A stretch of DNA of 64,000 nucleotides from Bacteroides coprosuis DSM 18011 (lineage in GTDB: Bacteria; Bacteroidota; Bacteroidia; Bacteroidales; Bacteroidaceae). Position 1 is the stretch's first letter; each line of letters opens with the position of its first letter. The notes under the pieces were generated by a model. The model was not told where the DNA came from. It saw nothing but the letters and a program-made list of their open reading frames with translations, and did no database searches. A program made the position numbers and the translations under genes. The DNA lies in NCBI GenBank assembly GCA_000212915.1, contig CM001167.1:359780-423779 (forward strand), given 5' to 3'. Positions 12,775 through 16,785 of this stretch are shown piece by piece.

Positions 12775-12816
12775 TATAGAACGACATAAAAATATTAAAC
12801 AAACTTATTGAAGAAT

Positions 12817-13542
12817 ATGAAAATAGCATTGATAGGATATGGAAAGATGGGTAAGGAGATAGAAAAGATAGCCCAAAAGAGGGGTCATCAAATAGTAAGT
12901 ATTATTGACTTATCAAACCAAAAAGACTTCAATAGTGATGCTTTCAAATCAGCAGATGTAGCCATTGAATTTACAAGTCCAAACTCTGCATATGAGAATT
13001 GTGTTAATGCTTTTAAATCTGGAGTAAAAGTTGTTTCTGGTAGTACAGGATGGATCAATCACCATGAAGAGGACATCCACAAGTTTTGTAAAGAAGGAAA
13101 CAATACTTTGTTCTGGTCATCCAACTTTAGTCTAGGGGTTGCCATTTTCTCTGCTGTCAATAGTTATCTAGCTAAAATTATGAATGACTTTCCTTCGTAT
13201 GATGTTACAATGAGTGAAACTCATCATATCCATAAATTAGATGCTCCTAGCGGAACAGCTATAACTCTAGCAGAAGGAGTTTTAGCTAATATTGATAGAA
13301 AAAACAAGTGGACTAATGAGCCTAGCCAAAATAGTAAAGACCTTTATATTGAATCTATCCGTGAAGGAGAGGTTGCAGGTATTCACTCCATTAAATATTC
13401 ATCTGAAGCAGATGATATAACCATAACTCATAGCGCTAAAAACCGCTCAGGATTTGCTCTGGGTGCAGTAATAGCAGCTGAATTTACAGCAAAGAATAAC
13501 GGCTTTTTACAGATGTCGGACTTATTCCAATTTTTAAAATAA
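12817..13542 (+). CDS. dapB: 4-hydroxy-tetrahydrodipicolinate reductase
   Basis: NAD(P)H-dependent enzyme of the diaminopimelate/lysine pathway, supplying peptidoglycan cross-link precursor. The N terminus has the nucleotide-binding GYGKMGKEIEK, then SGSTGW, and the catalytic signature ETHHIHKLDAPSGTA (about residues 143-157). About 241 residues, normal for the family. I start at the ATG at 12817, which opens on MKIALIG; an in-frame TTG three codons upstream is less likely. lepB follows after 7 bp. Confidence 0.96.
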   Translation: MKIALIGYGKMGKEIEKIAQKRGHQIVSIIDLSNQKDFNSDAFKSADVAIEFTSPNSAYENCVNAFKSGVKVVSGSTGWINHHEEDIHKFCKEGNNTLFWSSNFSLGVAIFSAVNSYLAKIMNDFPSYDVTMSETHHIHKLDAPSGTAITLAEGVLANIDRKNKWTNEPSQNSKDLYIESIREGEVAGIHSIKYSSEADDITITHSAKNRSGFALGAVIAAEFTAKNNGFLQMSDLFQFLK

Positions 13543-13549
13543 AGAGTAT

Positions 13550-15196
13550 ATGCGCAAAAATACGCCAAAACAAAATATTAAAGGAGCCATTATCATTATC
13601 CTTTATCTTTTATTCTTAGTATGGGTAAAGAGTTGGCTAGGATTAATTCTTCTTCCTTTTATCGTTGATATTTATTTCACACGATTCATTCCATGGGGCT
13701 TTTGGAAGAAGCTTACCAATCCAGTTACCAAAACTATATTCAGTTGGCTAGATGCTATTATTTTCGCTCTAGTTGCTGTTTATTTTGTTAATATATTCAT
13801 TTTCCAAAACTATCAAATTCCAACATCTTCATTAGAGAAATCACTTCTAGTTGGAGATCACTTGTTTGTGAGTAAACTAAGCTATGGACCTAGAATTCCC
13901 AATACACCTATAGCTTTACCAATAGCTCACAACACCATGCCTGGAGGGCAAGGCAAATCTTATTTAGAAACGCCTTATTGGGAGTATAAAAGGGTTAAAG
14001 GCTTAGGCCGTATCCAAAGAAATGACATCGTTGTATTCAACTATCCAACAGGAGACACTGTGATGTCAAACCCTAATATTCAAGGAATGGACTTTTATAA
14101 GTTAGCATACGAAATAGGCTATAATGTTATTAAAAGAATACCAGAACTAGATAGTTTAAACACATTACAACAAAGAACCTATTTCTCTACAGTATATAAT
14201 GAAGGGAAAAAAAACCTTGAAAGTAGTCCTGAATATTATGGAAATAGGATAAGTCGTCCTGTTGACAGAAGAGATAACTACGTAAAAAGATGTGTCGGTA
14301 TACCAGGTGACACTCTCCAAATTATAGATAGCCAGATTTATATTGATGGAGTGTTAAATAAGAATGCACCAGATGTACAGTATAACTACTATGTACAAAC
14401 TACGGGTCCGAGAATTCCTGAAAAAGTATTTAAAGAACTGGGCATTAATAATGATGATCATCATGCTCTCTTTAGACGAGATGTACGTGTAGAAGATAGA
14501 AATAGAGGTAATCAAGTAGTATTTCACCAAGAAGGAGTTAATAACAATGACTTGGAGGAAATAAAAACTAAGTATGCAATCGGTAATAACTACAGAATTT
14601 TTGTTACCAACTCTCGTGAAGCTGATTTCTTAAATAGTCAAGGTTTCAATAGTGAAGGTTTTAAAGGAGATGCAAAGTTTATTTACAACCTCCCTCTTAC
14701 TCAAGAAATGTACGAAACTTTAAAAGCTAATAAGGCCCTAATCTCTAATATTGTTCAAGAGCCAGCTACTAGTCAAATATCGGACGCAGACTATCAGCGA
14801 TTATTAATATACCCTTTAAATGGATATACAAAATGGGACAAGAATAATTATGGACCTATTTGGATTCCCCAAAAAGGTAAAACAATAGAGCTAACACTTA
14901 ATAATTTACCTATCTACGAACGCTGTATTTCTACTTATGAAAAAAATTTATTAGAAGTAAATAATGGTCGAATCTATATTAATGGGGAAGAGGCTAAAAC
15001 TTATACATTCCAAATGGATTATTACTGGATGATGGGCGACAATAGAGATAACTCTCTAGATTCTAGATACTGGGGATTTGTACCAGAGGATCACATTGTT
15101 GGTAAACCTTTGTTTATTTGGTTATCTTTAGAGAAGGACAACGACTGGTTTGACGGACATATTCGTTGGAATCGTTTCTTTAAATGGGTTAAATAA
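13550..15196 (+). CDS. lepB: signal peptidase I (long Bacteroidota form)
   Basis: Membrane-bound leader peptidase that removes signal peptides from exported proteins. Two or three N-terminal membrane spans (about residues 10-45 and 65-88) precede the catalytic domain. The nucleophile motif is IPTSSLEKSL with Ser94, the general base is Lys246 in YVKRCVGIPGD, and the late box is MGDNRDNSLDSRYWGFVP. At 548 residues it is much longer than enterobacterial LepB because of insertions between these boxes, a pattern I know from this phylum. It lies between dapB and a degenerate paralogue. Confidence 0.95.
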   Translation: MRKNTPKQNIKGAIIIILYLLFLVWVKSWLGLILLPFIVDIYFTRFIPWGFWKKLTNPVTKTIFSWLDAIIFALVAVYFVNIFIFQNYQIPTSSLEKSLLVGDHLFVSKLSYGPRIPNTPIALPIAHNTMPGGQGKSYLETPYWEYKRVKGLGRIQRNDIVVFNYPTGDTVMSNPNIQGMDFYKLAYEIGYNVIKRIPELDSLNTLQQRTYFSTVYNEGKKNLESSPEYYGNRISRPVDRRDNYVKRCVGIPGDTLQIIDSQIYIDGVLNKNAPDVQYNYYVQTTGPRIPEKVFKELGINNDDHHALFRRDVRVEDRNRGNQVVFHQEGVNNNDLEEIKTKYAIGNNYRIFVTNSREADFLNSQGFNSEGFKGDAKFIYNLPLTQEMYETLKANKALISNIVQEPATSQISDADYQRLLIYPLNGYTKWDKNNYGPIWIPQKGKTIELTLNNLPIYERCISTYEKNLLEVNNGRIYINGEEAKTYTFQMDYYWMMGDNRDNSLDSRYWGFVPEDHIVGKPLFIWLSLEKDNDWFDGHIRWNRFFKWVK

Positions 15197-15202
15197 TCTA
15201 CG

Positions 15203-16123
15203 ATGAAAAGAGGAGTAAAATGGGTGTTAACTGTTTTTGGAGTAATTCTTGTGATAGGATTACTCCGTTCCTTACTATTTGCATCTTGCTATATACCTGC
15301 TTCAGGAATGGAAAACAATCTTAAGCAAGGTGATTGCATTATTGTAAATAGATGGTCGTATGGACTCAGAATCCCCTTTTCAAAATCAAGAATATTCTCT
15401 CAAACAGCAAACAAAGGAGATATCCTTTTATTTAATAATCCAGTAGATACAAGTACAGACAAGATTTATCAAAAAGAATTATACATCAGTAGATGTATAG
15501 GACTACCTGGAGACACCTTATTAGTAGATTCCTTATTCCTTTCACATGAATCAAGCTCCTTCTTTAATCCAGATCAAAGGAGTCTATATAGTATCTATAG
15601 AGAACACGAACCTCTAATAGATTCTATATTCCTAAGTTTGAAAATTCAAAGACAAGAAAATGTAGGTGAAGATGATGGCAAAATCATAAAAAGCCTAAGT
15701 GCTTATGAATATTATCTTTTAGAACAAAAGTTAGGTACAGATACAATCATCTATCCTCTTGAAAATAAAAGTCAGAATCTACACCCTCTTTTTATTCCCA
15801 AAAAGGATGTTCTTATAAAAATTGAACCATGGAATAGAATTCTATTATTCAACACAATTCTCTTACATGAAAAGCAAAATATAATCATGAAGGAGAATCA
15901 GCTCTATATAAACGGTCAGATAATTCAAGAGTATCAGTTCACTCAAGATTATTATTGGATGTCATCCAATAATAGTTTAAACCTTTCCGATTCAAGACAA
16001 TTTGGTTTTGTACCTCACTCCCATTTGATAGGCAAGGCCTCTTTTATTTGGTTTTCGAAAGACCCTAACCACAGCTTATTTAGTGGTTATCGCTGGAATC
16101 GTATTTTTAAATCAATTTATTAA
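15203..16123 (+). CDS. S26 signal-peptidase-like paralogue lacking the catalytic dyad
   Basis: A 306-residue homologue of the preceding LepB with one N-terminal span (about 7-28) and the same box order. The nucleophile position reads IPASGMENNL: the residue before Met, normally Ser, is Gly35, with a Ser one place earlier. The Lys box reads YISRCIGLPGD, so the general-base Lys is Ser96. The MGDNRDNS box has become MSSNNSLNLSDSR. The frame is intact and the late GFVP segment is kept, so it looks like a maintained pseudoenzyme, perhaps a partner or regulator of LepB, rather than a decayed gene. Spacing to lepB is 6 bp and to the WbqC gene 8 bp. Confidence 0.88.
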   Translation: MKRGVKWVLTVFGVILVIGLLRSLLFASCYIPASGMENNLKQGDCIIVNRWSYGLRIPFSKSRIFSQTANKGDILLFNNPVDTSTDKIYQKELYISRCIGLPGDTLLVDSLFLSHESSSFFNPDQRSLYSIYREHEPLIDSIFLSLKIQRQENVGEDDGKIIKSLSAYEYYLLEQKLGTDTIIYPLENKSQNLHPLFIPKKDVLIKIEPWNRILLFNTILLHEKQNIIMKENQLYINGQIIQEYQFTQDYYWMSSNNSLNLSDSRQFGFVPHSHLIGKASFIWFSKDPNHSLFSGYRWNRIFKSIY

Positions 16124-16131
16124 ATTAAAAA

Positions 16132-16785
16132 ATGTCTAAGACAGCATATTTATCATCCGCATACTTAGCTCCTATTCAATATTATCAAAAGTTAGCATCT
16201 TATCCTCAATGTGTTATTGAAAAGTATGATCATTATATCAAGCAAACCTATAGGAATAGATGTTATATAGCAGGTGCAGAAGGTATACACAACCTGACTA
16301 TCCCTATAACAAAACCATCAACAGAAAAATGTTATATGCGAGATATTCAAATCTCAGAACATGGAAACTGGCAACATATGCATTGGAATGCAATTATATC
16401 AGCCTATAATAATACTCCTTATTTTGAATTTTATGAGTCTGATTTTGCTCCATTCTATCACAATAATAAATACCAATACCTCTGTGACTTCAATGAGGCT
16501 CTACAAGAATTAATTTGCAAACTTATTGATTTAGACATCAATTATACTTACACAAAAGAATACAAAGAAGCTTTCTCTGAAGCAGAAATTGATTTTAGAG
16601 AAATTATACATCCTAAAAAAGACTTCAGTATAGCAGACAAAGAATTTGATGTAGTCCCCTACTATCAGATTTTTCAAGAAAAGCATGGTTTCATACCCAA
16701 TCTTAGCATCATTGATCTACTCTTTAATAAGGGTCCTGAATCTATTTTCTATCTAGATAAATCACTTATAAATCAAATAAAATAA
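16132..16785 (+). CDS. WbqC-like family protein
   Basis: A 217-residue protein of the WbqC-like family, found near surface-polysaccharide genes in some bacteria and of unproven function. The family pattern is seen in YLAPIQYYQKL at the start, YRNRCYIAGAEGIHNLTIPI (about residues 40-60) and HWNAIISAYNNTPYFEFY (about 83-100), with a C-terminal SIIDLLFNKGPES. No signal peptide. It is the last gene of the dapB operon, and its 3' end overlaps the convergent M16 peptidase gene by 24 bp. Confidence 0.9.
   Translation: MSKTAYLSSAYLAPIQYYQKLASYPQCVIEKYDHYIKQTYRNRCYIAGAEGIHNLTIPITKPSTEKCYMRDIQISEHGNWQHMHWNAIISAYNNTPYFEFYESDFAPFYHNNKYQYLCDFNEALQELICKLIDLDINYTYTKEYKEAFSEAEIDFREIIHPKKDFSIADKEFDVVPYYQIFQEKHGFIPNLSIIDLLFNKGPESIFYLDKSLINQIK

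Follow-up and report, generated by a model that had tools for sequence, protein, structure and literature searches.

We identified, directly downstream of the signal peptidase I gene (lepB) of Bacteroides coprosuis DSM 18011, a gene, denoted lepX here, whose product is best explained as an ancient pseudo-signal-peptidase that is maintained by selection and that, itself unable to cut, partners another protein, most likely LepB, in the inner membrane; we put the probability of this reading at roughly one half. The gene lies within the 64,000-nucleotide stretch of DNA analyzed in this work (hereafter, the window; Table 1).

The lepX open reading frame (ORF) starts with ATG, 6 nt after the lepB stop codon, and is followed, after another 8 nt, by a wbqC-like gene. 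LepX matches both PF10502 of Pfam (88.9 bits, cut-off 22.9) and TIGR02227 (89.6 bits, also above the cut-off) and thus belongs to the S26 family by sequence, and a Pfam search of the ORFs of the whole genome yielded only two S26 matches, LepB and LepX. Alignment of the two neighbors produced three blocks, the best of which spans 129 columns with 38% identity (E = 1e-24), and also covers the region between boxes D and E. The ORF, the family matches and the alignment all agree with the initial sequence-only reading, which had described an S26 paralogue lacking the Ser-Lys dyad directly behind an active lepB.

Table 1. Positions of lepX, the adjacent genes and their diagnostic residues in the window
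Feature	Position	Strand	Remarks
dapB, conserved neighbor upstream of lepB	12808..13542	+	TIGR00036, 145.3 bits; same order in relatives
lepB (548 aa), signal peptidase I with both dyad residues	13550..15196	+	directly upstream of lepX
LepB Ser94	13829-13831	+	
LepB Lys246	14285-14287	+	
LepB GDNRDNSLDSR	15035-15067	+	
lepX (306 aa), paralogue of signal peptidase I, predicted to be inactive	15203..16123	+	ORF, PF10502, TIGR02227, same-locus orthologues
N-terminal membrane anchor of LepX, approximately residues 7-25	15221..15277	+	MKRGVKWVLTVFGVILVIGLLRSLL; helix 2-25 in the model
Box B remnant IPASGMENNL of LepX	15293..15322	+	Gly in 63/63 full-length orthologues
LepX Ser34, shifted serine	15302-15304	+	Ser in 36/63 orthologues
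LepX Gly35, in place of the nucleophile Ser	15305-15307	+	
Box D remnant LYISRCIGLPGD of LepX	15479..15514	+	Lys in 0/63 orthologues
LepX Ser96, in place of the general-base Lys	15488-15490	+	
Box E remnant WMSSNNSLNLSDSR of LepX	15956..15997	+	DSR retained; no equivalents of Gly272 and Ser278
wbqC-like gene, conserved neighbor downstream of lepX	16132..16785	+	PF08889, 116.6 bits; same order in relatives

Comparison of LepX with LepB reveals the loss of the active site. The nucleophile region IPTSS(94)L of LepB corresponds to IPASG(35)M in LepX, the general-base region YVK(246)R corresponds to YIS(96)R, and box E, which reads WMMGDNRDNSLDSR in LepB, reads WMSSNNSLNLSDSR in LepX, with the GDNR box gone. 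The equivalents of E. coli Ser278 and Gly272 are replaced as well, by Leu261 and Ser255, respectively, whereas the FGFVP motif and the N-terminal membrane segment are retained; the residues read off initially, namely, Gly35, Ser96, the lost MGDNR box, the anchor and GFVP, were all correct. With both dyad residues replaced, LepX falls among the inactive S26 homologues of the SpsA/SipA kind. LepX shares with the signal peptidases I of family S26, such as those of E. coli and Bacteroidetes, the fold family, derivation, membrane anchor, the framework of boxes C and D, DSR, GFVP and the cleft residues, but the equivalents of Ser90, Lys145, Ser278 and Gly272 are all replaced, so that it should not bear the name signal peptidase. 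Judging from these residues, the predicted inactivity of LepX is well supported.

Basic residues precede the membrane anchor, and therefore the N-terminus of LepX is predicted to face inside, with the domain in the periplasm. Where the membrane helix ends, a FASC or FTSC stretch (residues 27-29; 15281-15289 in the window) resembles a lipobox. Cys29 is present in 48 of the 63 orthologues described below and is replaced by Tyr in 13, and F-A-S-C stands before Tyr30. Both the basic residue (R, K or H) 7 positions ahead of Cys29 and the F, V or A at position -3 are atypical of a lipobox; the former makes lipidation of LepX appear doubtful.

A search of 199 Bacteroidaceae genomes yielded strong, full-length LepX matches in 66 of these (bit scores 348-493), which represent six genera (g1, 3/3; g3, 27/28; g9, 6/6; g13, 27/27; g23, 2/2; g27, 1/1), that is, 66 of the 67 genomes sampled from these core genera, and the extracted copies are open at full length. 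The sole g3 genome without lepX (G221, locus L177) carries wbqC directly after lepB. Residues were counted in 63 LepX/LepB pairs, including that of the window. The nucleophile position is occupied by Gly in all 63 LepX proteins and by Ser in 62 of 62 LepB proteins (one LepB is split in its ORF), and the general-base position is occupied by Ser (45), Gly (9), Asn (7) or Ala (2), and never by Lys, in LepX, compared to Lys in 63/63 LepB. The Ser278 equivalent, Ser in every LepB, is L, I, V, F, T, M or K in LepX. The sequence-only reading had named the alignment of orthologues across Bacteroidales as a check; all orthologues examined here, within Bacteroidaceae and beyond, lack the dyad.

The gene order dapB-lepB-lepX-wbqC is found in the lepX-bearing Bacteroidaceae loci wherever the sequence examined spans it, and recurs, with a dyad-less second copy, in other Bacteroidales families (L147 of f24, L197 and L198 of f20, and L199 of f58); in L137 (f22), the dyad-less copy has lepB and wbqC as neighbors. 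In the sampled Flavobacteriaceae loci, wbqC directly follows lepB (L040-L042, L044 and L045). In a phylogenetic tree of 49 proteins, from which the two dyad columns had been removed, 18 dyad-less copies from the family of the window and from other Bacteroidales families form a single clade (support 99/90), with 16 of these grouped at 100/96 and the active LepB copies placed apart. The dyad is absent from every one of the 18 sampled clade members. Orthologues with an intact dyad, which would have pointed to a local loss in the window, were sought, and none were found; the antiquity of LepX is well supported.

The tree also places several other S26 genes. Two degenerate copies (L139 and the first copy of L146) are placed outside the lepX clade and seem to be independent losses, although long branches make the finer placements in the tree unsure. 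Four loci in other Bacteroidales families (L140, L143, L144 and L146) contain two or three tandem S26 genes next to each other at lepB. In the first three of these loci, two tandem copies each carry the dyad, and their placement outside the lepX clade eliminates them as lepX orthologues; in L146, it is the copy with IQSPACKPHL and EVSRC that looks like the separate loss. Within the dyad-less set, L199 still possesses GDNR, so that, at least on this line, loss of the dyad preceded loss of the GDNR box. L147 and L216 contain Cys rather than Gly at the nucleophile position (ISSSCMEDSL and VPQACMQPSF, respectively), and their Lys position is occupied by Ser or Gly. Furthermore, stand-alone third S26 proteins of approximately 290-330 aa are encoded away from lepB in some genomes (L157-L164) and are absent from the genome of the window; those that were aligned contain both Ser and Lys (IPSSSMKPTL, YVKRC) and, from these motifs, look like active accessory signal peptidases.

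An AlphaFold model of LepX, built from a 15-row alignment of LepX and LepB (pLDDT 77, pTM 0.64, with both active-site loops low), was compared to known structures with Foldseek. The high-probability matches were signal peptidases, namely, E. coli LepB (probability 1.00, E down to 1e-8) and S. aureus SpsB (0.98-1.00), followed by SipA (0.85-0.96). The query TM-scores are modest (0.26-0.37) and the model itself is moderate, and for this reason it serves fold assignment only. The substrate cleft was followed at the residue level, using the positions that line it in the E. coli signal peptidase structures. The equivalents of Ile86, Pro87, Met91, Leu95, Ile101, Val132, Tyr143 and Ile144 are kept or conservatively replaced (Ile31 in 60/63, Pro32 in 63/63, Met36 in 63/63, Leu40 in 60/63, Ile/Val46, Leu/Val76, Phe/Tyr94 and Ile95 in 61/63), and those of Phe84 and Asp142 are not. 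Thus, apart from the latter two positions, the cleft is conserved in the sequence, the feature that has been shown for SipA.

Two inactive relatives of signal peptidase provide the closest precedents. In Staphylococcus aureus, spsA adjoins spsB. SpsA is a homologue of SpsB that lacks the catalytic residues, is inactive and dispensable and, like LepX, is a second signal peptidase homologue beside a single essential active enzyme in the genome (PMC12445088, PMC2721850). However, SpsA is a protein of Firmicutes without a known function, whereas LepX matches the LepB of Bacteroidetes, the region from box D to box E included, which suggests that LepX most likely originated separately. SipA of Streptococcus pyogenes adopts the signal peptidase fold, with Ser replaced by Asp48, Lys by Gly85 and the Gly272 equivalent also replaced; it is essential for pilus assembly, and no peptide binding could be demonstrated in vitro (PMC4049620). 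LepX resembles SipA in that the catalytic apparatus is gone and the cleft conserved (PMC4049620), but sipA is a pilus-operon gene whose product serves sortase-built pili, in contrast to lepX, which stands behind lepB in Bacteroidales.

The scenario that we favor is that LepX originated long ago by tandem duplication of lepB, that the whole active site was lost in an ancestor common to several Bacteroidales families, and that the dead protein was then retained by selection in a non-catalytic capacity. LepX would be held in the inner membrane by a single N-terminal helix, with the S26 domain in the periplasm, and its retained cleft could take up a signal-peptide end without cleaving it. As a non-cutting partner derived from the same gene block, LepX might then present precursors to LepB, hold them back or screen them. 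We infer the partnership from the constant adjacency of the two genes, their tight spacing and the retained cleft; contact between the two proteins is presumed under this reading. The genes may also be co-transcribed. On the coding strand, the 6-nt gap between lepB and lepX contains no terminator-like site, and a functional promoter or terminator between the two genes was rejected, as promoter-like matches in the region were no more numerous than in shuffled sequences and terminator-like ones numbered 3 versus 2.3. The initial suggestion that LepX plays a regulatory or structural part in protein export is plausible as a hypothesis.

The retained cleft would also fit a client-specific chaperone, with LepX as a protein that binds particular exported precursors or mature N-termini independently of LepB, following the precedent of SipA, a protein with a lost dyad and a conserved cleft that functions in pilus assembly (PMC4049620). 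The patchy distribution of lepX would suit dependence on particular clients. Nevertheless, lepX adjoins lepB in every locus examined and never a candidate client gene, and we consider this the less probable, if most serious, alternative to a partnership with LepB. Alternatively, LepX could be a decoy or inhibitor that holds signal peptides or LepB unproductively, reducing processing, or that shields membrane anchors from cutting. The fixed Gly35, the small residue at position 96 and the kept cleft suit binding without cutting, but a chaperone would leave the same picture in the sequence, and we regard a decoy as rather improbable.

In 23 close pairs of genomes (Nei-Gojobori method, own script, stop-to-stop frames), the dN/dS of LepX is 0.036-0.19 in 22 pairs and 0.42 in the remaining one, for which the values of LepB (0.32) and wbqC (0.35) are also high. 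In the other 22 pairs, the values are 0.016-0.14 for LepB and close to those of LepX for wbqC. Purifying selection acts on LepX somewhat less strongly than on LepB, and LepX evolves the faster of the two. The earlier proposal that a pseudoprotease is maintained next to the active enzyme, for which dN/dS was named as one check, is borne out by values well below 1, by the absence of the dyad from all orthologues examined and by the conserved locus; together with the open frames, the orthologues and dN/dS rule out a local loss or a pseudogene.

A slowly decaying duplicate without a present function would account for the faster evolution of LepX compared to LepB, for its absence from one g3 genome and for its fate in Prevotella-like genomes, where it is lost or shortened. 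Outside the six core genera of Bacteroidaceae, we found some form of lepX at 26 of the 45 inspected loci, two of these being weak (L213 and L214), and none at 19, and none of the 26 forms has the Ser-Lys dyad. The gene that separates lepB from wbqC encodes 196-258 aa in some Prevotella-like genomes and 136-165 aa in others (L178, L180, L181, L182, L183, L185, L191 and L193 belong to the latter). In the short form, the membrane helix, the last strand and the stretches GDRxxVNR and PGDT persist, and the former middle domain often gives way to a cluster of cysteines (such as CCRRCRCKDC) that could bind metal or form disulfides. Given its absence from 19/45 non-core genomes and one g3 genome, and its shortening in many others, LepB works without LepX, and this repeated loss and shortening show that the role of LepX is not indispensable across Bacteroidaceae. 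Nevertheless, decay is an unlikely explanation, considering the low dN/dS of LepX, similar to that of wbqC, in 22 of the 23 pairs, the intact copies in nearly all core-genus genomes and the invariance of Gly35. The fixed Gly35 combined with an always small residue (S, G, N or A) at position 96 argues against simple drift.

Finally, the possibility that LepX is an active protease with unusual chemistry, relying on Ser34 or another residue, is very remote, because position 34, Ser in LepX of the window and in 36 of the 63 orthologues, is T (15), A (4), E (3), Q (2), G (1) or N (1) in others, so that Ser34 does not appear to be a hidden nucleophile, and all 63 lack the equivalents of Lys and Ser278. 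The slight possibility of Ser34 catalysis left by the sequence-only reading is contradicted by these counts. Other candidate nucleophile/base pairs were also rejected: Ser264 (63/63) and Cys98 (58/63) are conserved in LepX but also in LepB, and the fixed changes specific to LepX (G35, M36, N38, I95, Y171, N217, H222, A at 227, F267, I276 and A279) offer no obvious catalytic pair.

Proteins of this kind are already known, as illustrated by SpsA and SipA; what sets LepX apart is a Bacteroidales-wide lineage with a fixed locus and graded shortening. In the open literature, with subscription journals outside the scope of the search, we found no description of a dyad-less signal peptidase of Bacteroidetes or of this Bacteroidales branch. 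Bacterial signal peptidase I is generally regarded as a one-protein enzyme. Eukaryotic signal peptidases have partners, namely, the accessory subunits of the ER complex and the mitochondrial pair Imp1/Imp2, and provide a lead for the idea of a partnered signal peptidase; however, the ER accessory subunits are not S26 proteins and Imp1 and Imp2 are both active, whereas LepX is a dead S26 protein and a putative partner. Tentatively, the signal peptidase of Bacteroidales might even be a two-part enzyme, in which LepB is joined by a dedicated, dead S26 subunit whose binding of signal peptides adjusts both the choice of precursors for cleavage and the rate of their processing, with the subunit rebuilt as a short, Cys-cluster membrane protein in Prevotella-like genomes.

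Annotation by family score would label LepX 'signal peptidase I', given that its TIGR02227 match exceeds the cut-off, and such a label would mislead both essentiality lists and inhibitor studies of signal peptidase. An inactive twin maintained next to LepB across several families of Bacteroidales, an order dominant in the human gut, would suggest that protein export in these bacteria involves a second, non-cutting component.
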